Below, in pieces: positions 51,050 to 64,000 of a stretch of DNA of 64,000 nucleotides. Where the stretch lies: contig JAHLKI010000011.1 of the NCBI GenBank assembly GCA_025602905.1, positions 186,001 to 250,000 on the forward strand. Direction: 5' to 3'. The notes under the pieces are model-generated. The model was given only the letters and a program-made list of their open reading frames with translations. It was not told where the DNA came from and searched no databases. The stretch comes from Phlyctochytrium arcticum. Its lineage: Eukaryota; Chytridiomycota; Chytridiomycetes; Chytridiales; Chytridiaceae. Each line of letters starts with the position of its first letter. Position 1 is the stretch's first letter. The position numbers and the translations under genes are program-made.

Positions 51050-53025
51050 ATGATCGCTGGACCGTCCACAGATTCTGCGACTGCAGAAACTGGTGCGGCA
51101 GCTAATGCGATTGCTTTCAATTCTCTTGACGAGCTTCTCGAGTATTCCAAGGCTAAAGCCAAAGCAAATGGAATTGCACTCACAAGAACTAGCAACAACG
51201 AGAAGTTCTATCTTCGTTGCTCTCGTTGGGGATCTGTCCGCGAGAAGTAGGAAACCACCGTAGACTCAGAGGATCAGAAGAAGCGCAACCGGGGAAGCCT
51301 GCGATGCGGGTGCAAATTCCAGCAGTATGTCGCGCAGGACAAGAGAGGTTTAAAGGGTCCCAAGAATAAGCGGTACAGTACCTGCACCAATCCTCCAATG
51401 AGCACAACCACGGGAATTCCGCAACCGTTGCATTTGCCGCATATCGGCAATTCAATGATGAGCACAAGGATTATCTGAGGCAGCATGCCAGAACAACGGT
51501 GAAAGAGCTTGTTCTGTCATTCCGCAGGACCTTTCCGAATCAACCAGTCATTGACAAGGATATCCGCAACTTTCGCACCCTGGAGCAAATGGAAGCAGCA
51601 AAGGGCAGATCTGCCATAGAGTGCTTGTTGGACGGGCTGAATCAACCTAAGTCCAAATATACGGTTAGCTACCAAACCAGCGATGATGGTGCTCTAACGC
51701 ACTTATTTTTTGCGCATGAAAAGAGCATCGCTAAATTGCAACAATACCCGGACGTACTGATCTTAGATTGTACATACAAAACCAACAAGTGGCAGATGCC
51801 GCTTTTCAACATCCTTGGTGTGGACGGCACTGGAAAGTCTTTTACCGTAGGTTACGCGTTTTTGCGAGGCGAAACTGCGGAGGATTACACTTGGGCGTTG
51901 AACAATATAGCTGGTCTTTTGGCAGGCAGCCGCGGAATCAAAACTGCGTTTGTGGATTGTGCCCCTGCTTTGATGAATGCCTTGGAGTCGATCTTTCCAG
52001 GTATCTTTTCAGCTTAAACGAGGCTTATTTGTGCTGGGTTATTTACTTTCTTATCAGGAATTAGTGTCCTGCTTTGTATCTTTCATATTGTGGAGAACGT
52101 CGGAGCCCAGCTCGTGCGCAAATACCCTGATGTTACGGACGAAAGCAAGCAAAGTATTATCACACTTTGGAACTCAGTCGTCTATGCTGCAACCCTTGAG
52201 GACTATGCGGCCGCTGTTCAAGCACTTTGGGACGAACTTGATGACGATTTCCCAATGATACGCATGTATCTAGAGGATACATGGCTCGTCCATCATAAGC
52301 GGTTTGTGAAGTTTTGGACAAGTCAGGTTCTAACGCTGGGAATTAGGGCTACATCCCGAGTTGAAGGGTCGCATCGCTGCCTTAAAGACTGGCTTCACAA
52401 TGGGGTCGGCGACTTTATGACCATATTTGCCGCTATGGATACCTTTATTGACAAGCAGCTCACCGACATCCAGAACGCATTCGACGTCGAAAAAGACCGT
52501 TTGAGTACGAAGATGCGCGAAATCTTGAATGAGACCCATCAGATTCGGGAACATGTCTCGCGCGTTACTTTCAATGACCACCTCTATGACAGTATTATCC
52601 AAGCTCGCACGGAGGGTCCTCTGCAACAGTGCAATCACCAGTACGCCGTCACAATGGGTTTACCTTGCGCCGACCAAATTCGCTACGAGTACAACCTGAC
52701 GATCCCACTGTCAGCCATCCATCCGGCTTGGCGATATTATCCTAGCGATACCAATATTGATCCATACTGTCCATTCGATGCGACAATGGATCCCTATGAG
52801 CGACTAGAAATTGAGCTGGCTGCTGTACGAAAGCGGTTTGATACCTTGCAAACGGCATCCCAACGGCAGCGTGCCCTGCAACAACTCACCCAGGTTGGAA
52901 TCATCAGCGGATCCGTCTTGGTCCCGGTACGGAACAAGCGTGCCGACACTATGGCCCAGCATCACGCTTCCTGTCACAGTGAGTCTAGGGGTGCCTTCAC
53001 TTTGAGCCTTATGGTTACTAATTAA
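51050..53025 (+). pseudogene. Mutator-like (MULE) transposase, decayed
   Basis: The FAR1/zinc-type N-terminal domain (FNSLDELLEYSKAKAKANG, then LRCGCKFQQYV) is broken by a TAG at 51247-51249 and a one-base frameshift near 51370. Beyond the shift the frame reads VQYLHQSSNEHNHGN and joins the MULE DDE domain: LILDCTYKTNKWQMPLFNIL, VGYAFLRGETAEDYTWALN, VDCAPALMNALESIFPG. A 57-bp intron (52001-52057, GTATCT..TCAG) keeps frame into the second exon, which opens with CIFHIVENVGAQLVRKY. The C-terminus includes TSRVEGSHRCLKDWL. The catalytic half is intact but the DNA-binding half is not, so this copy cannot make a full transposase from the sequence as given. It could still recognise small elements if expressed in part. 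Confidence 0.82.
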
Positions 53026-53709
53026 GTTTCCGGGATTCGAACCTATTCGGCTGGATCCAGCGAGTTGTCTCGTGACAAACGGCTCATTTGTGGGGCCACG
53101 TGGACTGAATTTCGAGGATGCTCGGCTGAATTCAGCGAGTCACCCTCAGAGTCGCATCCAGAATTCCATCCAAAGTTCCATCCAAAGTGGCATCCAGAGT
53201 TCCATCCAAAGTCGCCTTGAAGGTCATCCCCGTCGCCTTGAAGGTCAATAAAGGTCACCCTAAAGGTCACCCCCTAAAGGACCCAGTTGCACCGTCGCGT
53301 AGCAAGTCGCATCCAGAGTTCCATCCAGTTGCAAACGTGCAAGCGGTTGTTGCAGACGAGCAGCGTCGCTGTAGCGAACGCCGTTGCGTAGCAAGTCGCA
53401 TTAGAGCGAACCACCCCACCGTCGTCGCATCCAGAGTTCCATCCAGAGTTGCATCCAGTTGCAAACGACGTAGTCCCACCGTCGCATAGCAAGTTACATT
53501 TATGATTCAAACCCGCAGGGCCGTCGTCGTCGCGTAGTCAGTTGCATTATAAGTGGCATTATAATGGTGTCGACGGTTGTCGCTAGCATTATCCGTGGCT
53601 CCCGCAGGGCGACGGTGGTCGCGTAGTAAGTCGCATTATGTTGTCTCCGTGGTGCGTAGTGGTAAGAATAAGAAGTTATATATTTATATATAAGATACAT
53701 CAAATGTGC
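53026..53709. repeat. Complex tandem-repeat array at the left border of the viral element
   Basis: Units recur in irregular order. CGTCGCGTAGCAAGTCGCAT-like units occur about five times (near 53292, 53385, 53480, 53530, 53610). GCATCCAGAGTTCCATCC-like units occur about six times (53155-53330, 53425-53460). TCGGCTG(G/A)ATTCAGCGAGT-like units occur twice (53048 and 53131). Polinton-like elements often carry such arrays inside their terminal repeats, so this is the likely left end. The exact end is not determined because the right terminus is outside the window. Confidence 0.7.
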
Positions 53710-56700
53710 TTAAAAGAAACTACGCTTGTCCTTCTTGCTTCTATTCTCCTCAATTTTGAGTGGTTGCAGATTGGAGTAGTGATTATAGACTTCCTCATCG
53801 CAAACTCCTTCTTTCCGGAATGCCTCAATTGGTTTCTTGTGGTCGATCTCGAAATCGAGACCATAGCCTTCCCACGTACAGCCTTTAGGAAGCTCTGCCT
53901 GATCAATGAACTCCTTCCAGGTGGATCCGTAGAGATTGCCAACATTTCGCTTCAGTCGAGCCACTAAGGCCTGCTCATCAACAGCTGTGTCGGGCCATTG
54001 AATAATGTTGATATCGCTCATATCCTTGCACCGGGAAAGGGCCGTGTACAGTTGATGCTTCTCAAATTTCTTAGGGTTGAGAATGGTGTAACTGCCAGTC
54101 ATAGTGCAACCTTGTAGAATGTTTGCGGTGAGAGCGTAAGCCGGGCAAAATAATTGTTGGAATTCTGGAAGCGGGATGTCAACTATGGTTGTGAAGTCCA
54201 GTTGATCTGTCTCATAATCCCATCCAACCAATGCTACCGCCGTATCCGGCATTGGCGACTTCCTCTTGCCACGTTTGATAGGTCGTTTCGCTCGCGGAAC
54301 ACGAATGCCTTTCCAGGCTCCCATTCGGTTCCAAGATAGAACCTTGTAAGTTGCATTCCTGTTATCAATGCCATAGTGAGGATGCTTTTCGAAAGAAACC
54401 ACAGGGAGGCCAACTGTGAGATATAAGTCCTGTAGCTTGTACCACGAGCCAGGTTTGCGAAAGAGCCACTCTCCAGCTAAGTTCTTCTCAACCTGTCGTT
54501 CTTCAAGTTTTTGCATTCGGAGGAGATTGACACGTTTGCGATCCGAATGCGTGCATACCAGCGTCCGTGTGGCCAAGTTGCGTTCGAACTTGAAATCTCG
54601 CGTCAAGCTTGATGGTTTCTCCCAGAAGCTATCCAGCATTCGTTCAGTTTCCGGGCCGTACCGGTAATTCTTCTCAATGGTGATCCACACCGGTGACCCT
54701 CCAAGAAGTTCCTCGATGATTTTGCTGTTCTCGTAATCGTAGTTGCCCTCCTCGACCGGTTTGCACTGCCTGTAATCGCCAAAGAGGTAGAAAACGGTAT
54801 CAGGATCTTTTCGCTTGTAATCCAACAGATACCTCCATAAGTCAGCATTCAACATCGCAGCCTCATCAACGATAACATATTTGACTTGGCCAAACCCGCG
54901 TCGACCAAGGCTCATATGAATAGTCTTCCCGTCAAGTCGGTCTGCTACTCGGTTCAGAAAGGCAGATACAACGTACGAGTCACCGTTTTGCTCCAGGTGC
55001 TTGACCAGACGCTTGATGACAGCTGTTTTCCCAACGCCAGGTTTTCCGTCAATGAAAGCACCGCTTTGGTGGCTGAGAATGAACTCAGGAGTGCAGTCTT
55101 CGTTGTCGTAAACAATGATCCTTTGTTTCTCTACGTTCCGTATCGACAATAAGTTACTTGAGTTTCGCATCCGTGGGAATTTGAGTGCTTTGAAGTCTTG
55201 AATCTTCCAATCTGGTTCTGCTGCAAGCATGCTATCAACTCGTCGCTTGGTCTCAATATCAGGGAACAGGAACGTCATTGCGTCGGTGCGAATTTGAATC
55301 AACTCGATCGAGGAATCCCATTCCTGTACCTTTCTCCACATATCATAGAGTCTGACATATGTGTACTGAACAATCTTTGCGTTGATCGGACGATTATCCG
55401 TGGTACGTTGGGTTTCAAGTCTTGCGTGAATAGTGTAGCCTCCAGCGTGCTCGTTATGCGTTACAAGTACGTTCCCACACTTTTTTTTTTCTTGGTAAAA
55501 TCGCAAAGCGGACCAGTAGAGATACGACATCATTTCCCGGTCGTATGTGGTACAGGTAGCCGTATCGTGGAAGTTGCGTTTGGTCCCTAAGCATCCAATG
55601 GTACATACTGCAATGATCTTGTACAGCTTCCTTAGTTCTGCGTCCTCCGCTGGAAAAATCTCCTGTAGTTTCGTTAAGAAGGGTTGAAAAAAATCCTTGG
55701 GTAGCGCCTTATTCTTTGCTCGTAATCGGTGGGTAATTTTGAACGGATATTTGTACTTTCGAGCAACTTTGACAACTTCAATGTCATAGAATCCGTTTCC
55801 GTGCCAGAATGGTTTAACGCGATTGTTGTTCCCCCAAGCGCTGGTCACGCAAAAGAAGAAGGAGGGCTCGTCGTCTGTTATTTTTTTGGTACTTTCCATT
55901 TCTTCTTCTGATATATGCCACTCCTCAATGTCGTCTCCTGTTGAGAAAATGGGAAACTTTGACTGCATATTGAACATATTGCTTGGGTAATTGTTGTTGA
56001 TGTCGATCGTTGTCATCAACAATGGATCAAGTTCCCCCTCGTGGTGCTTTCCACTTGGGAGCAAAAGTCGTTTGGTAGGGTGATGACCCTCTGACCAGCT
56101 CACCCCCATTAGGAAACAACCAGGTACGGAACATTCGCAGATCCTTTGTGGGGCAATGTTGACTTGACTTCGAAGGAAATGTCCGCCGCCAATGATGGAG
56201 CGTAAATGATTGGTATACTGACTCTCTTCTATAGTACCCGAAACATTCTTGAGGAAGTTCATACCGAGAGAAGTGAGGGTCTGACCAGTATAAGGAATGT
56301 TCATGAGTTTTGCGGCTTGGGTCGCTTCAGATACTTGATCGCACAATTTGACAATGACAAACTCGTTTCTGATTGTGCGGATTCCATCTCCGATTATTTC
56401 CACCAAGGGGTGCACTCCAGTCACGTCCAACATTATCCTGTAATAATCTTCCATAGTGGTGTCCTCGGTAATGATCACGATCCCTTTCACTTTGCGACTA
56501 ATCAAATGTCGAAAGTCTTCTTCCTCAGTATCAATCCCAATGACTTCCCCTTCTACCTTTTGTCTTGCTGCACCCAATTTGCCGTCGGTTTGGTTGGTGA
56601 GAGACGCCCTGACGCCCCTATCAAGGATCGGGAATACGTGTTCGTCTTTGATCCAAAACATCAAGGTCTCTGTGTTCCGCTCCTTGCTTCGTTTCTTCTC

Positions 56701-57585
56701 AGAGTCTTCCACATCGTCTTTGACACGGTAATCTATAACTTTGCAGTTCCAGCCGTCATATGCATAGAGATTGAACTTGAAGGCTTTGCAGAAGTCGAGT
56801 ACCATTTCAGCCGAAACGCCATCACTTGGCGAATCCATCTTGAACCATTTCGCCATTGAGAGAACATTTCTTGGGTAGTCTCGTTTCCAGCCTCTGGTTT
56901 GTCCAGCTTTGTTCTTGATTTTGTTGGCCAAAGCGCTTCCAAAGTCGACGAGATACTGTAGAACGCAGACATTCTGCAATGTGATAGCTTCGCCCACGGA
57001 ACAATGAACAGTTTCTTCTTTCGACTTGCGCATACGCACATTTCTGGCGTACGTAAGCTCTTCGGGTGATATTTCCGTGATATTGACTTCTTGCGGGCCC
57101 TTGACTTCATGAAGTAGACCAAACGAATCCGCTAAAAGGTTCTGTTCTCCAGATTCCACCTTGCGGGCCCACTCCTCCGTCTCTGCGCTGACGTAAGCAG
57201 ACGCCTGTTCACGTGAGGAAAATAGTTTTCGATACGGTCCCATAAGGCCAGTCTTGCCCGTCTTGTAATCTTCAGGTGCGTCTTTGGGACCAAAGAGATA
57301 TGCTATTTTGAAGCTGATCTGATACAGTCTCGGAATAGACAGTGGCGGATAGTCTGTGGGCTGGTTGTTGCGAGAATCAACACGCACGTCGTGTAGCAAC
57401 ATATTCTTGTCGGCGTGATGTTGGGCTGCATACTTCCGTAAGAATTTGTGAATGGACAACAGGTTCGGATGGCGTAACTTTTTGCTGAACTGCTGTCTTA
57501 CTGTCCTCACACCGTTTCCTGTTTCAAAGGACCACACAGCGTCGAACACCGTGGTTGTTTTGGCCGGCTTCTGAGTAGTCATCAT
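53710..57585 (-). CDS. DNA polymerase B - SF1 helicase - HNH nuclease fusion
   Basis: 1291 residues, one exon, ATG at 57585 (second ATG next to it). Residues about 1-400 are an N-terminal region; GIDTEEEDF near 365 could be an Exo I-type motif, but this is unsure. The polymerase B core follows: motif A IDINNNYPSNM (about 527), motif B KLYKIIAVCTIGCLG (about 660) and motif C IRTDAMTFLF (about 767). From about 840 a superfamily 1 (Pif1/RecD-like) helicase runs: Walker A GKPGVGKT, Walker B VIVDEAAML, LFGDYRQCKPV (motif III), NYRYG, ALTANILQGCTM and LYTALSRCKD. The last 60 residues look like an HNH nuclease: FEIDHKKPIEAF..YNHYSNLQPL..NRSKKDK. Expected role: replication of the viral DNA. Active-site residues look intact. 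Opposite strand to the F-box gene, with TATA elements between them. Confidence 0.82.
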   Translation of the reverse strand: MMTTQKPAKTTTVFDAVWSFETGNGVRTVRQQFSKKLRHPNLLSIHKFLRKYAAQHHADKNMLLHDVRVDSRNNQPTDYPPLSIPRLYQISFKIAYLFGPKDAPEDYKTGKTGLMGPYRKLFSSREQASAYVSAETEEWARKVESGEQNLLADSFGLLHEVKGPQEVNITEISPEELTYARNVRMRKSKEETVHCSVGEAITLQNVCVLQYLVDFGSALANKIKNKAGQTRGWKRDYPRNVLSMAKWFKMDSPSDGVSAEMVLDFCKAFKFNLYAYDGWNCKVIDYRVKDDVEDSEKKRSKERNTETLMFWIKDEHVFPILDRGVRASLTNQTDGKLGAARQKVEGEVIGIDTEEEDFRHLISRKVKGIVIITEDTTMEDYYRIMLDVTGVHPLVEIIGDGIRTIRNEFVIVKLCDQVSEATQAAKLMNIPYTGQTLTSLGMNFLKNVSGTIEESQYTNHLRSIIGGGHFLRSQVNIAPQRICECSVPGCFLMGVSWSEGHHPTKRLLLPSGKHHEGELDPLLMTTIDINNNYPSNMFNMQSKFPIFSTGDDIEEWHISEEEMESTKKITDDEPSFFFCVTSAWGNNNRVKPFWHGNGFYDIEVVKVARKYKYPFKITHRLRAKNKALPKDFFQPFLTKLQEIFPAEDAELRKLYKIIAVCTIGCLGTKRNFHDTATCTTYDREMMSYLYWSALRFYQEKKKCGNVLVTHNEHAGGYTIHARLETQRTTDNRPINAKIVQYTYVRLYDMWRKVQEWDSSIELIQIRTDAMTFLFPDIETKRRVDSMLAAEPDWKIQDFKALKFPRMRNSSNLLSIRNVEKQRIIVYDNEDCTPEFILSHQSGAFIDGKPGVGKTAVIKRLVKHLEQNGDSYVVSAFLNRVADRLDGKTIHMSLGRRGFGQVKYVIVDEAAMLNADLWRYLLDYKRKDPDTVFYLFGDYRQCKPVEEGNYDYENSKIIEELLGGSPVWITIEKNYRYGPETERMLDSFWEKPSSLTRDFKFERNLATRTLVCTHSDRKRVNLLRMQKLEERQVEKNLAGEWLFRKPGSWYKLQDLYLTVGLPVVSFEKHPHYGIDNRNATYKVLSWNRMGAWKGIRVPRAKRPIKRGKRKSPMPDTAVALVGWDYETDQLDFTTIVDIPLPEFQQLFCPAYALTANILQGCTMTGSYTILNPKKFEKHQLYTALSRCKDMSDINIIQWPDTAVDEQALVARLKRNVGNLYGSTWKEFIDQAELPKGCTWEGYGLDFEIDHKKPIEAFRKEGVCDEEVYNHYSNLQPLKIEENRSKKDKRSFF

Positions 57586-57631
57586 TTGGTGTGTGTTCTG
57601 AAGATGTCGAGGAGAAAATAAATTTGGTCGC

Positions 57632-57644
57632 CTTTATATATGGT
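57632..57644 (-). promoter_or_regulatory. TATA box of the polymerase-helicase fusion
   Basis: Minus strand CCATATATAAAGGCG about 50-60 bp upstream of the start. Confidence 0.5.
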
Positions 57645-57679
57645 TTTCGCTGCACGTCACGGTCACCGCAGTGGAATAT

Positions 57680-57712
57680 AAAGTAAACAAAAGACGCCAT
57701 ATAAAAGGCCCT
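57680..57712 (+). promoter_or_regulatory. Viral composite promoter box, copy 1
   Basis: AAAGTAAACAAAAGA, four to six variable bases, then TATAAAAGGC. The same arrangement recurs at 58711-58742. It lies about 45 bp before the ATG of the F-box gene, followed by a CT-rich leader. Confidence 0.65.
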
Positions 57713-57750
57713 CCTCTCCTCTCTCACCCGTCCGCACTCGCTCAATTACA

Positions 57751-58713
57751 ATGACCAACCTGACCGACCAGCTCAACGAACCTATTCAAGCCGAGAGGAA
57801 ATTTATTCAAGCCGAGTATAGGAGAGAGCGCGATGAGTTGTTAGCTGAGAAAAAGATACTTCAGATGTCAGTAGAGCGACTTCAGGATGAGCTGTATGCT
57901 GAGCAACGCAAACGCCTTGTCGAAAATTGCAAACTTGAGTTGTTAGTTGAGCGACTTCGCGAGGAGTTGTCAGTTGAGCGACTCAAAGCGACACACGGCT
58001 TGGATTCCTATTACCGAAATCTAGCCGAGCGGCTGCAATCCGATACGAGCCGCAATTGTACCGACGACAACCTCAGCTTACCGCTCGATATCTTTGTTAT
58101 GCGTGTTCTTCCCCATTGCGATATTCGTACTAGGATGAGGATCGGAGCAACCAGCCGCCGCTGTAACAAGATCTATAAGGAAACCCTGACCAAACAAGAG
58201 AAATTTATGCTGACATTGGTCCGCAAGCAGCACGACCACAAAAAGAGTTTGCGGGAGCAATTGATCAGCGGAGTCAACTACATTGTAGAGGAAATGCTTG
58301 ACCGAGCTGCCAGCTCTGACAGAGACCAGATGACCCAAATCCTCGACAAGTGGGATGACTTTGAACGCATAATCACCGAAGATCCCGAAGTTTGCGCTGA
58401 ATGCAAAATTTGCAACTGTTCCGAATGCCGAAAGTGGTTCTCAAAAGAGGGTGACGGTTGCGCAGATCAGAGCGTGGAGTATCATCAATGCGAGAAGTGT
58501 TCGAAAGAATATCTATGGCACGGGGACGTCTATGTGGATTGCGGTTTTGCTATATTTCGACGTTACTATGATCCCGATGAAATTGAGAACTTCGATATGA
58601 ATTACTTGTTGGCGACTTCGTCGAATTATTTCTTCAATAATAGCTTTGAAATTGGATCCCAGGGCCTTCATGTCACATTAGTTAGTGCTGATGTCATAGA
58701 ATTTAACAAATAA
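57751..58713 (+). CDS. F-box-like protein with coiled coil and Cys-rich zinc motif (viral)
   Basis: 320 residues. Residues 1-90 are a charged coiled coil with repeated ERL..EL heptads. At about 108-145 lies an F-box-like segment, LPLDIFVMRVLPHCDIRTRMRIG followed by SRRCNKIYKE, the Skp1-binding motif of SCF ubiquitin ligases. After a helical region there is a Cys cluster at about 210-260 (VCAECKICNCSECRKW, then HQCEKCSKEY and a later Cys), a probable zinc site. The C-terminus has no known domain. Plausible role: recruiting a host or viral protein to the host SCF ligase. The F-box call is by pattern and needs a profile search. Confidence 0.65.
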   Translation: MTNLTDQLNEPIQAERKFIQAEYRRERDELLAEKKILQMSVERLQDELYAEQRKRLVENCKLELLVERLREELSVERLKATHGLDSYYRNLAERLQSDTSRNCTDDNLSLPLDIFVMRVLPHCDIRTRMRIGATSRRCNKIYKETLTKQEKFMLTLVRKQHDHKKSLREQLISGVNYIVEEMLDRAASSDRDQMTQILDKWDDFERIITEDPEVCAECKICNCSECRKWFSKEGDGCADQSVEYHQCEKCSKEYLWHGDVYVDCGFAIFRRYYDPDEIENFDMNYLLATSSNYFFNNSFEIGSQGLHVTLVSADVIEFNK

Positions 58714-58742
58714 AGTAAACAAAAGAACTCTATAAAAGGCGG
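58711..58742 (+). promoter_or_regulatory. Viral composite promoter box, copy 2
   Basis: AAAGTAAACAAAAGA, then CTCTATAAAAGGCGG, aligned with the box at 57680. Both are followed by a C/T-rich leader. It overlaps the stop codon region of the F-box gene. Confidence 0.65.
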
Positions 58743-58822
58743 TCCCTCTTGCCCCCCCGCTGGACTCCGCGCGAAGTCCAATCAGCAAGCTTTTCAATCG
58801 GCCTAGTCCACGCAAGCGCACA

Positions 58823-58966
58823 ATGGGGGCCACCAGCGATCAGATCATTGATCAGACATTTTGCAAGTCCTGTACTAAGAACGGGATCGAGCCGACCGCG
58901 AAAACCTTCCATCGAACAAGAGCTTCAAAGAAGTGCCCCCTCAACAAAGGTTGTTTAGAATTATAA
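58823..58966 (+). CDS. Small Cys protein (47 residues) in the viral element
   Basis: First ATG after the second composite promoter. The protein has FCKSC near residue 14 and KKCPLNKGC near 37, a C2C2 pattern that could bind one zinc. A GTTGTT..TTGTAG stretch after it could be an intron joining it to the next gene, but that join is out of frame, so I keep it separate. Moderate to low confidence because it is short. Confidence 0.4.
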   Translation: MGATSDQIIDQTFCKSCTKNGIEPTAKTFHRTRASKKCPLNKGCLEL

Positions 58967-59133
58967 TTCTTCCCCAAGCTTGGTCTCATCTATGGTTCTT
59001 GTAGAGAACGCTTATCGTGAAGATATCGCTTCCAAAGAATTTAGCAATTGACACTCCGGACACGATCCAAGACTCCGACCCGGAGGCCTTGTGGGTTGAC
59101 AAGGCAGCTCAGGATGAGGACGGCGCGACGTCT

Positions 59134-60183
59134 ATGGTAGAGACGGCCGAGGATGTTCAAATGGACGACGACTTTATCATACTGCTAGACCAGGCCGCGG
59201 GAATGCACTCCGCCAAATTGTCAGACTACACACAACTTGCCATGGCAATGCTGAAATCTGAGCACGCCCTCTACTTGTCACGTTCTCTGCTGAGAGCATT
59301 GGTCCAGACCGGGAGAAATCGCTTTGACGAAGACTTCTCCGAGTGGTTCTATCCCCCGCCACCGTACGAAGCAAGCCGAGAAGCAACCCCAGAAGCAACC
59401 CGAGAAGCAAACCGAGAAGCAAACCCAGAAGCTACCCGAGAAGCAAACCCTCAAGCTACCAGAGAAGCAAACCCAGAAGCTACCCGAGAAGCAACCCGCG
59501 AAGCAACCCCAGAAGCAGCCTCAGAAGCAACCCCAGAAGGTTACGTATCTGAGGGTGACGTATCTGATGGCGCAGAGGCACCGTCGAGGAAGAGGAAGAG
59601 GGTCAAGACAAGTCGCGCCGCACCTCATCGATTGTTGCTGGATACTTTGGGGTATACCGACGGAGAAGGTCTCGTCGAATACTTCCCCTGGACCAGGGAG
59701 CTTAGTCGGAATTTTCAGCAACAACACCGCAATAATGATATGGACTTGTTATTGCGCTATGACAAGGCAGGAACAGTAGTCCCCGGAGTTGGCTTCGAAG
59801 AACATTTGCGGTATATTCTTCGCGGGCGTCATCTGGAAAAGCGCTCTCATCTTGTAGTAAGAGAGGAAAACAAAACGGACAGGAATTACTTATTCAACCA
59901 AGGACTGGGCAAGTCCTGCGACGACAAGTGTGTCAAGAAGGCACTGAAAAACTTCAACCACAAATGCACCAAGGCGTGGGAGTGTGTCAAGCTGTTGGGT
60001 TGGGGGATCTTGGTATCCCGGCAACATATCACCAAGGCCGGTGGGAACATCTACAAGCTAATGTCTGAAGATGAGCTTTCGAGCGCGGCACAATTACTGG
60101 AGGCGAAGGAACTACCCACACGAAAGTATGACTCACAGATGGAACATTTTGTAGAGCAGAAAATCTTGAATTATGTAACATAG
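59134..60183 (+). CDS. Viral protein with EATREANP tandem repeats
   Basis: 349 residues from the first in-frame ATG (59134); the frame is open upstream to 59005 but holds no ATG there. The N-terminus is acidic, then hydrophobic/helical (ALYLSRSLLRALVQTG). Residues about 80-145 are a Pro/Glu/Ala/Arg repeat (EATREANPEATREA) of 15-30-nt DNA units. A KRKRVK basic motif resembles a nuclear localisation signal. The C-terminal 180 residues look folded, with SCDDKCVKKALKNFNHKC and GWGILVSRQHITKAGG. I do not recognise a family. Overlaps nothing and ends 5 bp before the packaging-ATPase 3' end is reached on the other strand. Confidence 0.6.
   Translation: MVETAEDVQMDDDFIILLDQAAGMHSAKLSDYTQLAMAMLKSEHALYLSRSLLRALVQTGRNRFDEDFSEWFYPPPPYEASREATPEATREANREANPEATREANPQATREANPEATREATREATPEAASEATPEGYVSEGDVSDGAEAPSRKRKRVKTSRAAPHRLLLDTLGYTDGEGLVEYFPWTRELSRNFQQQHRNNDMDLLLRYDKAGTVVPGVGFEEHLRYILRGRHLEKRSHLVVREENKTDRNYLFNQGLGKSCDDKCVKKALKNFNHKCTKAWECVKLLGWGILVSRQHITKAGGNIYKLMSEDELSSAAQLLEAKELPTRKYDSQMEHFVEQKILNYVT
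59366..59545 (+). repeat. Coding tandem repeat (GAAGCAACCCGA-like units)
   Basis: Twelve- to fifteen-base units GAAGCAACCCGA, GAAGCAAACCCA and GAAGCTACCCGA repeat about fifteen times and encode the EATREANP region. It generates open frames in all phases. Confidence 0.85.
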
Positions 60184-60863
60184 TCTTCCTCAAACTTTCT
60201 GTGAAATCGCTTTTTGTCAATATAAACATAGCTATATTTTTTTTTGGTGTTGTTAATGAAGAACTCGGTCAATGCTTTCTTCCTAAAGGTCACAGTGGCA
60301 AGCTTACTTGCGAGGATTTCAAATGTCTCTGGGTCCCAATTGAATATACACCATTGAGTGCTATTGGTAAACTGGATCCCATCCAACTGACGCCGGTCCT
60401 GAAAAACACACAACAGGCTCAACGAGTAGTGACGGCCGGTGGTATAGATTTTGTTAAGAGTTTTACGAAGCTCTTTACTTTTAGCTATATTTCCACAGTC
60501 GTCTAGCACCAGTAAAAGGCTTTTTTTAGGGTCTTCTTCGGCTCTCAGCTTTTGAATGTCCAAAATGTTTTGGAGCGACTCGTTATCAATGCTGTCTCGA
60601 AAGCTTACATTCTCGTACTTGGCTAATGACTTGGGGGCATCATCAAAGAACACAGTGGGACTAACCCATATTATTTGATTGATTACCTTGTGGTAAACAG
60701 CGTGAATGAGTCCAGCGATGAGAGAGGTCTTGCCCGACTCCCGTGCGGCCAGCCAGGACCAACAGAATTCTTGTTTGAGCAATCCAGAGGGTAACGGAGC
60801 GGGAACTCTCCGATCTTGCTTGACCTTCCTAGCTTTTGCAATGTAAGGTTCAATGAACACCAT
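60171..60863 (-). CDS. Packaging ATPase (FtsK/HerA, A32-like) of the viral element
   Basis: 230 residues from the ATG at 60863; an earlier GTG at 60917 is not used. Walker A is AARESGKTSLIAG (about residue 38), Walker B LLLVLDDCGNI (about residue 115), and a sensor-like SLLCVFQDRRQL follows. Size and motif spacing fit the A32-type genome-packaging ATPases of Polinton-like viruses, virophages and poxvirus-like relatives. The DDC in Walker B is typical of this group. Divergent from the minor capsid gene with 56 bp of AT-rich DNA between starts, so they probably share a promoter. Confidence 0.85.
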   Translation of the reverse strand: MVFIEPYIAKARKVKQDRRVPAPLPSGLLKQEFCWSWLAARESGKTSLIAGLIHAVYHKVINQIIWVSPTVFFDDAPKSLAKYENVSFRDSIDNESLQNILDIQKLRAEEDPKKSLLLVLDDCGNIAKSKELRKTLNKIYTTGRHYSLSLLCVFQDRRQLDGIQFTNSTQWCIFNWDPETFEILASKLATVTFRKKALTEFFINNTKKKYSYVYIDKKRFHRKFEEDYVT

Positions 60864-60919
60864 TTCCTTTATTTTTCTTGTTGAGCATATAGATATCAAT
60901 AGAATTTTTACTTGCACAA
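60864..60919. promoter_or_regulatory. Shared promoter between packaging ATPase and minor capsid gene
   Basis: 56 bp of AT-rich DNA with AGATATCAATAGA between two divergent ATGs. No room for two separate promoters. Confidence 0.4.
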
Positions 60920-61657
60920 ATGGTGTATCATGAACTGTATGCTAGCTCTGACTGTGGGAATCTAACCGGGAGGCTAAGTGAGCCCGAATGGTTCGTTGGA
61001 CAGGCTGTTGACCGCTTCAAGATCTTACGGATGAGTATCCCTATGTCCTTCCATAGCGTCAACTCAAGTAACAACACGATACTATTCTCCGACAAGGAAG
61101 ACGACTCTGCTATCAAGAAGGCTGTTTTACCTCCAAGTGATTATAATATCACCAATATTGAGGAAGAGTTGGGGGCGGCAATGAATCGATCAGGCAACCA
61201 GAACTATACAGTCTCATATGATATTGACAGAAAGCAGATAACAGTTACTGCACCACAGCCGTTTCGAATTCTCAGTATTGCGGATGGATCGTCAGCCTCC
61301 TGGCTTGGGATCGCACGAAGCTTAATGCCTGGTTTGGCCACGTCTGTTACTTTCCCAAATCTAGCAGATTTTTCCATTGGGACAAGCATTCTGTTGGTCA
61401 GCCGGTCTCTGCCCGCCAAGAACGCAACCTGGTTGGGAAATCAAGCAATCAAGGTCATTGGACATATTGATTGTTCAGCTCCTGGCTCAGTACTTGATTG
61501 GGAAAATAACGGTAGTTGGTTGCAAAGTAATGGCGATATGATCTCCACGTTAGATATATCCCTTTTAGATAGCAAGACGTTATTTCGGATACAATTGACA
61601 CAACCTTTCACAATGACAATGGGAATACTGACAGACGTTGACGACCCCGAGCCTTAA
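60920..61657 (+). CDS. Penton-like minor capsid protein (single jelly roll)
   Basis: 245 residues. Pattern: an N-terminal strand region, then KILRMSIPMSFHSVN, LPPSDYNITNIEEELGAAMN, VSYDIDRKQITVTAPQPF, ASWLGIARSL and a second strand-rich half (TSILLVSRSLPAKN, TLDISLLDSKTLFRIQL). The G/PSDYNITNIEEEL and LGI blocks recur in penton proteins of Polintons and Polinton-like viruses (positions recalled, not aligned). It would fill the icosahedral vertices of the capsid. Complete. Confidence 0.78.
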   Translation: MVYHELYASSDCGNLTGRLSEPEWFVGQAVDRFKILRMSIPMSFHSVNSSNNTILFSDKEDDSAIKKAVLPPSDYNITNIEEELGAAMNRSGNQNYTVSYDIDRKQITVTAPQPFRILSIADGSSASWLGIARSLMPGLATSVTFPNLADFSIGTSILLVSRSLPAKNATWLGNQAIKVIGHIDCSAPGSVLDWENNGSWLQSNGDMISTLDISLLDSKTLFRIQLTQPFTMTMGILTDVDDPEP

Positions 61658-61968
61658 TCCGCTGCTGGTTGACTTATTGTATCCGGGATCGAGCTTCGCC
61701 ACGACGAGTCTATGTCGATTCCTTTTGTTGCAAGGTAAGCGACGAGGGTGTCATAACCGTGATCGTGATGCAAACAAGTTGCCGATAGCTTATGGCGATC
61801 ACTGCGTTGATCACATTCCATCAAGCTTTTCATACCAGAAAGCGTAGCTGCAACGTCCTTGCTTATAGCCTTGACGAAATGCCACTGGATCAGATACGAT
61901 CCTGCTCGCACCTCATTTGGCTCATAAACCGCCGTATGATACGCAAACTGACAAACAATGTATTCCAT
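61654..61968 (-). CDS. Small minus-strand protein of the viral element
   Basis: 104 residues, ATG at 61968, ending four bases inside the convergent minor capsid gene. It fills the otherwise empty gap between the capsid genes. Features: a Cys/His cluster CLHHDHGYDTLV and the tail YLATKGIDIDSSW. Minus-strand GTATCATATAC lies about 20 bp upstream as a possible TATA-like element. No recognised family; may be a real small viral gene. Confidence 0.45.
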   Translation of the reverse strand: MEYIVCQFAYHTAVYEPNEVRAGSYLIQWHFVKAISKDVAATLSGMKSLMECDQRSDRHKLSATCLHHDHGYDTLVAYLATKGIDIDSSWRSSIPDTISQPAAD

Positions 61969-62023
61969 ATTCTTATCTATTTTGTATATGATACAATTTT
62001 TTTTTCTTCAGAGTACGTTAAAT

Positions 62024-62452
62024 ATGTCGGACTCTGAAGAATCAAATCAAGTCACTCAAGCAAGTCCTTCCGAATTTTCAGCTCCTAGGAAGGTTTCTGA
62101 CAAAAAACTCGAAGCTTTGGCAAAAGCCAGAGCAAAGAAGCAAGAAGTGGTGAAACGCGCCCGCGTCGAGAAGCGAGAAGGTATGCTGAAAAACATTTCA
62201 GATGACTACAAGCACGAAGTCGATCATCTTGTCAATGAACGAATGGCCATTGAGCGTCAGAAGCTCGACACAGAGTTTGCACAATGGAAAGTGGCGTTCT
62301 ATGAACAGCAAGGGCAAGGGCAAGATGCAAAGCTTCGAAAGCAACCGAAGAAAATTGTAAGGAAACGGCCGAGCTCTGCTCAACCTCAACCTCAACCTCA
62401 ATTTGATCAACCATTGCCTCTCAGACGTTTCCCAACTATTGTTGGATTTTGA
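62024..62452 (+). CDS. Basic coiled-coil protein of the viral element
   Basis: 142 residues from the ATG at 62024 (an earlier in-frame ATG at 61958 precedes a hydrophobic stretch and I prefer the later one). It is rich in Lys, Glu and Ala, with a long helix around KLEALAKARAKKQEVVKRAR and VDHLVNERMAIERQKLDTE. A basic KKIVRKRPSS and PQPQPQ tail closes it. It lies directly before the major capsid gene. Possibly a DNA-binding or scaffold/core protein, by position only. Confidence 0.55.
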   Translation: MSDSEESNQVTQASPSEFSAPRKVSDKKLEALAKARAKKQEVVKRARVEKREGMLKNISDDYKHEVDHLVNERMAIERQKLDTEFAQWKVAFYEQQGQGQDAKLRKQPKKIVRKRPSSAQPQPQPQFDQPLPLRRFPTIVGF

Positions 62453-62486
62453 GAGACTGCGTTTTTTTTTCTGCGTTATGGTAGAT

Positions 62487-62500
62487 ATATATATATATAG
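62487..62500 (+). promoter_or_regulatory. TATA-like element before the major capsid gene
   Basis: ATATATATATATATAG about 15-25 bp before the ATG of the major capsid gene. The run is very regular and short of the ATG, so it is only a suggestion. Confidence 0.35.
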
Positions 62501-62512
62501 AACAACTCAAAT

Positions 62513-63694
62513 ATGACGACTCTTATGAATGAGCACAATTTCCAGTTCCCTCCGACAAATCTGTTAAGTGCTGGCAACAACATTCGTTGGAGATCGATCA
62601 AGCCAAGCAGCGGGCTCGCTATGTTGTCGGATCAAAGCGCTGCACTGACATTTACAATTCAGTCATCAAGCGCTGCCCTTGTAAGTAATACTTTATATAT
62701 AAAGGCAACATATGTGCTTGTTGATGAGGTCGGTTCCAATATTGGCCCAAACACGTATGAGCACACGGAGCTTGGACTGGCTGCTTTGATTGAAAGCGAC
62801 AATATGAGTTGGTCAGGTGTCGAGACGAAAATGTCGCAAACAAAGGACTATCCAGCTCTCCTCTCGACGTGGTATACTGGTGACACTTTGGGCACAAAAC
62901 AATGGAAAAAGCAGCTCGAAGGATTCGGAACTAAGGACCGTTTACAGACGGATGGAAGTGGTGTTCTTATTCATCATCCTTTCAATTGCACGTTCGCTAC
63001 ACCGCAGCATATTCTGCTTCCAGCCATCACTGGAGGTGTGAATGTGTCCTTCAATATTGGAAGAATAGAAGATTTCATACCAAATCTCGCAACCGGCACT
63101 TCAACCAGTGGACGAAAACCTGCCCGTGTTCTGCTTCAGGATATTTCCTGCAATTACGCGGAATTGGAGTTGGATAATGAATATATTCAACAGATTGTGT
63201 CCGACCTTGCAGCTGGTGGAAAATTATGGCACGCAACTGTGGATATGGAGCAGCAAGTCGTTCCCGCCGTAGAGGGCAATATGCAACAGATAGTCGTAAA
63301 TACCAGACGTGCTAAGTCAGTCCAATCGTGGAGGCTGCAGTGGCGAAAGCCTGCCAACATTGCGGATAAGACTAGGGACAGAGCATTAATCAACTCTCAT
63401 TGCGATCTATCGAGCTTTGATGTGGAAATTGCTGGTCAACGTATCTCTCCAAAGGGACGAAAATGGCAGCTCAACTTAGCATCTAACAAGAGCGGAACTA
63501 TCAAAGATCCAGAAGCTTGGTATTTGCAGTACCTCACCGCGGCTGGTGGTTATGGCTCTGAACTCAACGATGTGGTCTTTAATCCCGCTGCTGGACTATT
63601 TTCCGTTGGAACTAATTTTGCCGCCTCATCGGATCAAAGCAATGTTTGGGGGGACGGAATGGATTGTTCCAATTCCGATGGAAAATGTACATAA
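62513..63694 (+). CDS. Major capsid protein, double-jelly-roll fold (Polinton-like)
   Basis: 393 residues. N-terminal FQFPPTNLLSAGNNIRWRS, then an alternating strand pattern with two jelly-roll-like halves: the first contains FTIQSSSAALVSNTLYIKA, the second HILLPAITGGVNVSFNIGRI and ARVLLQDISCNYAELELDNE. It closes with DPEAWYLQYLTAAGGYGSEL and a WGDGMDC tail. Length is at the short end for double-jelly-roll capsids of Polinton-like viruses. It forms the trimeric capsomer of an icosahedral virion. The frame is intact. Confidence 0.78.
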   Translation: MTTLMNEHNFQFPPTNLLSAGNNIRWRSIKPSSGLAMLSDQSAALTFTIQSSSAALVSNTLYIKATYVLVDEVGSNIGPNTYEHTELGLAALIESDNMSWSGVETKMSQTKDYPALLSTWYTGDTLGTKQWKKQLEGFGTKDRLQTDGSGVLIHHPFNCTFATPQHILLPAITGGVNVSFNIGRIEDFIPNLATGTSTSGRKPARVLLQDISCNYAELELDNEYIQQIVSDLAAGGKLWHATVDMEQQVVPAVEGNMQQIVVNTRRAKSVQSWRLQWRKPANIADKTRDRALINSHCDLSSFDVEIAGQRISPKGRKWQLNLASNKSGTIKDPEAWYLQYLTAAGGYGSELNDVVFNPAAGLFSVGTNFAASSDQSNVWGDGMDCSNSDGKCT

Positions 63695-64000
63695 CAACAG
63701 AGCACCGAAGCTCAGTTCCGGTGATGACCCAACAACTTGTAACCTTGGCCATTGACTGTCTCATTTGTGTGACAACCAACAAGATCAGTGTTGTCTATGT
63801 CTGGTAAGGCGGCTAGGTTCATTATGTGATATATGTGAAATGATACGAGTACTGAAAAAAAGGACTCGTGTAATTTCTGCTCAGGAAGCAAAAGTGCTCT
63901 CTGTCTTCGCGCGAAGATCCGGTCCTTTTTGGTCAGCGACGTGGCTTTCTTGCGCGTGGCGTCTTAGGTCGATTCTGTTTCTTAAGTAGCCGCCCCGCCT
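63695..64000. other. Right edge of window inside the viral element
   Basis: A 74-codon plus-strand frame (63765-63989) with CCLCLVRRLGSLCDIC begins here, but no family is visible and the DNA continues past the edge. I do not call a gene. Confidence 0.3.

Follow-up and report, generated by a model that had tools for sequence, protein, structure and literature searches.

The window analysed here, the whole stretch of 64,000 nucleotides at bases 186001-250000 of the 900-kb contig C11 (genome of 31.5 Mb, 91 contigs), very probably carries at its right edge the remaining left part of a Polinton-like virus that integrated into the genome of a zoosporic fungus. The element is of a known kind, in a heavily invaded fungus, and has sister copies on contigs C1 and C3 and further copies of its subfamily on C52 and C33. 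A sequence-only reading of the window had proposed an endogenous Polinton-like virus in a fungus. Support for that identification comes from inverted terminal repeats, 6-bp target duplications at all three complete repeat pairs tested, rve integrase domains in the C1 and C3 copies, and host genes of the Zn_clus and Radial_spoke families. The same reading had described an intact capsid and replication set; this does not hold for the window copy, in which the right part of the element is absent and the capsid frame is broken. The element comprises (window coordinates):

52978..64000, plus strand: remnant of the element, homologous to the C1 and C3 sister copies as far as C11:250008 (window 64008), 8 bases past the window
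52978..53140, plus strand: left terminal repeat with 163 bases of homology between copies; border common to the window, C1 and C3 copies
53138..53639, strand not assigned: subterminal stretch of degenerate short repeats, partly of a 12-base unit
53710..57585, minus strand: replication-type protein of 1291 amino acids (aa); Pfam AAA_30, E 3.5e-13
57751..58713, plus strand: 320-aa protein without assigned function; partial relative in the C1 copy
59017..60183, plus strand: 388-aa protein without assigned function; related proteins in C1 and C52
60171..60917, minus strand: A32-type packaging ATPase, 248 aa from a GTG start; Pfam Pox_A32
60920..61657, plus strand: penton-position protein, 245 aa, divergent neighbour of the ATPase gene
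61958..62452, plus strand: charged 164-aa protein, encoded between penton and capsid; start of its relatives near 62024
62513..63694, plus strand: capsid-position protein, which a frame shift shortens to 393 aa, against 431 aa in C1 and C52

Terminal repeats, integrase, fibre-like gene and host

The border shared with the C1 and C3 copies moves the left end of the element from 53026, where it had been placed earlier, to 52978. Used as a genome query (the genome searches reported here scored the best candidates only), the terminal stretch of 163 bases had 17 matches, and inverted terminal repeat pairs were found at C3:108065/124162 (16.1 kb), C1:389919/411004 (21.1 kb) and C33:215967/243230 (27.3 kb). 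Each of the complete pairs tested, three in number, is flanked by a 6-bp direct target duplication (CTCAAT, TCCAGC and CCCGTC at the C3, C1 and C33 pairs, respectively); when the nine ends are paired in the 33 other ways, no pairing has more than 2 bases in common. No matching right terminal repeat was found for the window copy, which keeps its left repeat alone. An identical terminal repeat at C11:394013 was considered as the other end of the window element, displaced by an inversion, and rejected: its flank has 1 base in common with the window end, and the 76 fibre rows include none at that place. The subterminal stretch at 53138-53639 did not align to the C1 and C3 copies.

In both the C1 and the C3 copy an rve integrase domain lies about 1 kb inward from the right repeat (C1:391069-391344 and C3:122735-123010, each E 2.6e-13, over the cut-off, with 150 of 222 candidates scored). 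Past the point at which the window copy breaks off, the C3 copy continues with further frames, including a fibre-like open reading frame (435-2174 within C3:116801-119300), which matches Av_adeno_fibre at 5.6e-6, over the cut-off as a sum over repeats, and Adeno_shaft at 0.01, below the cut-off; the encoded protein is 99% identical to one in C1. Fibre relatives elsewhere in the genome have open frames of up to 1976 aa.

The genome has seven matches to Radial_spoke, six of them over the cut-off, and 16 to Zn_clus (Zn2Cys6), all over the cut-off; neither family was found in any of 14 control genomes. Because genes of both families are present, which we take to be flagellar and fungal markers, respectively, the host is assigned as a zoosporic fungus, and it appears to make swimming spores.

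Three further observations concern the repeats. A 74-base partial second terminal repeat lies just inside the right ends of two copies (C1:390150-390223, C3:123858-123931). At C16:622993-625978, two inverted terminal repeats about 3 kb apart enclose an rve integrase domain, in what looks like an integrase-only derivative. The inverted arms of C33:215967-243230 are 99.8% identical over 2.5 kb, and C8:996736-1000092, near a contig end, repeats 3,357 bases of the right end of C33 without a difference; we offer the reading that C33 is a fold-back element and that the C8/C33 identity reflects duplicated or unmerged contig ends.

Genes of the window copy

The packaging ATPase, as first proposed, is present as an open 248-aa frame with a match to Pfam Pox_A32 (E 2e-8, 34.4 bits, cut-off 22.8), and in an alignment of 13 its relatives start at the internal Met 19 of the window protein. 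The proposed penton-like protein stands as an open 245-aa frame with 63 genome matches, divergent to the ATPase; its best Pfam match, DUF5901 at E 0.016, lies below the cut-off, and by position and family it is a candidate for the single-jelly-roll penton protein of Polinton-like viruses. Other clades of the genome have a charged protein of similar size in the place of the 164-aa protein, with homology to the latter that is not significant.

The capsid-position protein has 14 genome matches including itself, ten others being at E 1.6e-5 to 5.3e-4. Three of four related capsids from other clades match Pfam Capsid_N weakly (best E 0.002, below the cut-off), the window protein not at all. Sequence searches of solved structures gave no match for the capsid and were likewise unproductive for the ATPase, and a single-sequence fold model of the capsid reached a pLDDT (predicted local distance difference test) of 30.8. 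A double jelly roll in the window capsid is putative, presumed from context.

The 1291-aa protein has a superfamily 1 helicase at about residues 838-948 (AAA_30 3.5e-13; PHROG Dda-like helicase 3.1e-14), a resemblance to RecD2 (1.9e-7) that is far below the cut-off of the RecD2 model, and an endonuclease-VII-like C terminus (PHROG endonuclease VII 0.0021), which we presume to be of the type labelled HNH. The best matches of this protein in a solved-structure search were helicases, weak at E 0.05. The sequence-only reading had named a polymerase B here. Residues 1-835 gave no Pfam polymerase match at E up to 10; profile comparison with the family B DNA polymerases (PolB) of the same genome, using shallow profiles, gave no alignment; and the 14 places in the genome that match PF03175 include none on C11. 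PolB was accordingly rejected as a proven label, with motif-like stretches alone speaking for it: by eye, stretches of the protein resemble what we take to be PolB motifs A and C, each aspartate being kept in distant copies on C8 and C25. A polymerase label for the N-terminal two thirds is plausible, unproven. The distant relative at C8:484814-489435 is about 35-44% identical, and its last frame continues past the helicase into unrelated repeat-like sequence.

No protease family, and hence no maturation protease, was recognised by Pfam among the seven element frames; the right parts of the C3 and C1 copies were partly read. Within the 388-aa frame, a 12-base tandem repeat of 14 copies (59368-59539) encodes a repetitive charged stretch. 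The 320-aa protein and the frame L013 2-361 each have a stretch that by eye resembles what we take to be an F-box; Pfam gave no F-box match in the 320-aa protein at E up to 10.

Truncation and damage

Homology of the window copy to C1 and C3 ends sharply at C11:250008, where both sister copies continue, and the window copy is without everything past the capsid gene. Between C1 and C3, identity is 99.5% across a 4.2-kb stretch that extends past this break point. The capsid frame is itself shifted about 40 codons ahead of the stop of its family, giving 393 aa versus 431 aa in C1 and C52; past the frame break, the tail typical of the family continues in another frame, with 36 of 36 residues identical to the C1 copy. 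Near the window element on C11 there is no fibre relative among the 76 genome rows, and no integrase among the 85 rows of an other-clade query or among the 150 of 222 candidates scored in the rve search. Because the right part is absent and the capsid frame is broken, we regard the window copy as a remnant, neither intact nor live. Open frames across 11 kb had been taken to mean a recent insertion or a live virus; long frames do occupy 53710-63694 in a run, with the capsid frame shift as the exception, and neither a recent insertion nor a live virus is supported for a copy that is truncated and frame-broken.

That the window copy is nonetheless an intact, recent or live provirus, its missing right part and frame break being assembly errors, would accord with the open state of most of its frames, and the identity of the capsid tail to C1 would fit a recent change or an assembly slip. 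We consider this very improbable given the sharp end of homology, the lack of fibre and rve nearby on C11 among the 76 fibre rows and the 150 scored rve candidates of 222, and the single flank base shared with C11:394013, the sole other identical terminal repeat.

Damage extends beyond the remnant in the window. The C3 copy has a stop in its capsid gene and gave no ATPase or penton match in the genome searches; the replication genes of the C1 and C52 copies are broken and the C52 penton gene was matched in pieces; the C33 copy has an incomplete ATPase match that contains a stop. All five copies of the window subfamily that were examined (C11, C1, C3, C52, C33) thus have some defect.

Selection and possible exchange between copies

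Ratios of nonsynonymous to synonymous divergence (dN/dS, by Nei-Gojobori), which are rough because many dS values are near saturation, are low between copies: 0.060 (C11-C1), 0.091 (C11-C52) and 0.067 (C1-C52) for the ATPase; 0.056 (C11-C1) for the penton; 0.084 (C11-C1), 0.038 (C11-C52) and 0.035 (C1-C52) for the capsid; and 0.146 (C11-C3, 1118 codons) for the replication protein. Within other clades the ratios are 0.091-0.132 for the ATPase and 0.112-0.146 for the capsid; comparisons between clades are saturated, the single ratio obtained being 0.414 at dS 2.7. Since the ratios are low, the copies seem to have diverged while their genes worked, not by decay in place; the comparisons suggest copy lineages that diverged with working capsid genes. 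Because dS between C11 and C1 is unequal among genes (0.15 for the capsid, 0.94 for the ATPase, 1.22 for the penton) and identity between copies runs in blocks, the copies look mosaic.

These ratios bear on whether the element is a capsid-coding transposon that moves only within cells, its particles having no role. Numerous chromosomal copies, a large share of which are damaged, are what such a transposon would leave, and the C16 repeat pair around an integrase domain looks like a transposon derivative. The dN/dS values of 0.035-0.091 for ATPase, penton and capsid, as well as the fibre-like gene in sister copies, are hard to explain without particles, and we judge a purely intracellular transposon unlikely.

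Several points weigh against an integrated virus as the origin of the remnant. The viral way of life is predicted from genome sequence. Some of the dN/dS comparisons are single pairs, in addition to the saturation of dS. Neither fold nor sequence profile shows a double jelly roll in the window capsid, and the name penton relies on position and family in lieu of a profile. The rve domain was also found in seven of the 14 control genomes and is hence common, and the other-clade integrase query missed those of both C1 and C3; for these two reasons it is placement alone that ties the rve integrases to the C1 and C3 elements.

Distribution in the genome

Genome matches number 54 for the ATPase, 63 for the penton (itself included), 76 for the fibre and 85 for the other-clade integrase, a divergent penton match adjoining 52 of the 54 ATPase matches. 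The census took in every ATPase (54), penton (63) and capsid (14) row, and part of the fibre (45/76), integrase (44/85), PolB (12/14), polymerase-helicase (9/11) and repeat (15/17) rows; the rows dropped were mostly short or second pieces, some of them strong (integrase pieces down to E 1.6e-71). With duplicated copies counted separately, the rows form 73 clusters, 48 of which hold at least two module kinds and 44 both ATPase and penton (duplicates included); since rows less than 12 kb apart were merged, one cluster can hold several elements. Among the 44, an integrase row occurs in 32, a fibre row in 28, both in 22 and a capsid row in 12. Relatives sought in viral-contig scans, a genome-contig scan and a phage search were not found.

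The census also bears on a possible assembly chimera of a contaminating virus with host DNA, which for C11 was judged from the assembled sequence. Because related modules lie on many contigs, in 48 multi-module clusters, a chimera is unlikely; target duplications bound three of the elements, and the window copy has cellular genes to its left and, by eye, also to its right. We regard a chimera as the least probable of the explanations considered, and retain the remnant of an integrated virus.

Comparison with known elements and proposed course of events

Polintons/Mavericks and Polinton-like viruses share with our element the inverted repeats, 6-bp duplications and rve integrase (the latter in sister copies), an A32-type ATPase, and genes in the penton and capsid positions. 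Unlike these, the element has no protein-primed PolB recognisable in profile searches, combines a helicase and a nuclease-like end in a single 1291-aa protein, has no protease among the searched window frames, and has a fibre-like gene in its C3 and C1 copies. Other Polinton-like clades of this fungus (C17, C23 and C4 among them) likewise have divergent ATPase and penton genes followed by a small charged protein and a capsid gene; their capsids are 19-21% identical to that of the window, and their rve integrase directly follows the capsid gene, unlike that of C1 and C3, which is close to the right repeat. Adenoviruses, which are proposed Polinton relatives, resemble the C3 copy in its fibre-like shaft repeats, and differ in that ours is an integrating element with an rve integrase and a fungal host; the comparison covers the fibre alone.

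We propose that the virus would have formed particles with its capsid module, the 1291-aa protein replicating it and the integrase joining it to host DNA at the terminal repeats. At the window site it may have inserted into a MULE transposase gene, the right side being lost later, and the copies may derive from lineages with working capsid genes that exchanged segments before or between insertions. More tentatively, and with doubt outweighing confidence, the elements could represent a lineage of viruses that infect zoosporic fungi and combine an adenovirus-type fibre with a fused polymerase-helicase-nuclease. Such viruses would keep entering this fungus as particles and exchanging segments with their relatives, and the proviruses, dozens in number, and the small integrase-only derivatives would be what they left behind.

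To our knowledge, invasion of such size by capsid-coding integrating viruses has been described mainly from protists. A 31.5-Mb fungal genome with 44 ATPase-penton clusters would permit study of viral entry, recombination and decay in fungi, and adenovirus-type shaft repeats in a fibre-like gene bear on the proposed Polinton-adenovirus link. The genome-wide invasion and the fibre are of more interest than the single window copy.

Locus and surroundings

The element appears to have inserted into remnants of a MULE-type transposase gene:

51499..53025, plus strand: MULE-type transposase gene remnants; Pfam MULE 1.8e-17 for 51499-52014, second frame linked to MULE by eye

The second of these frames extends 48 bases into the element. 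The host-gene surroundings first described are confirmed on the 900-kb contig, with ordinary cellular genes recognised by Pfam on the left and, on the right, frames that by eye resemble zinc-finger, citrate-synthase and WD-repeat proteins. The sole genome matches of the right-junction DNA are itself and a nearby tandem copy. Just past the broken right side, C11:250068-251676 consists of two tandem copies of a stretch of about 800 bases, with 88% identity between them.

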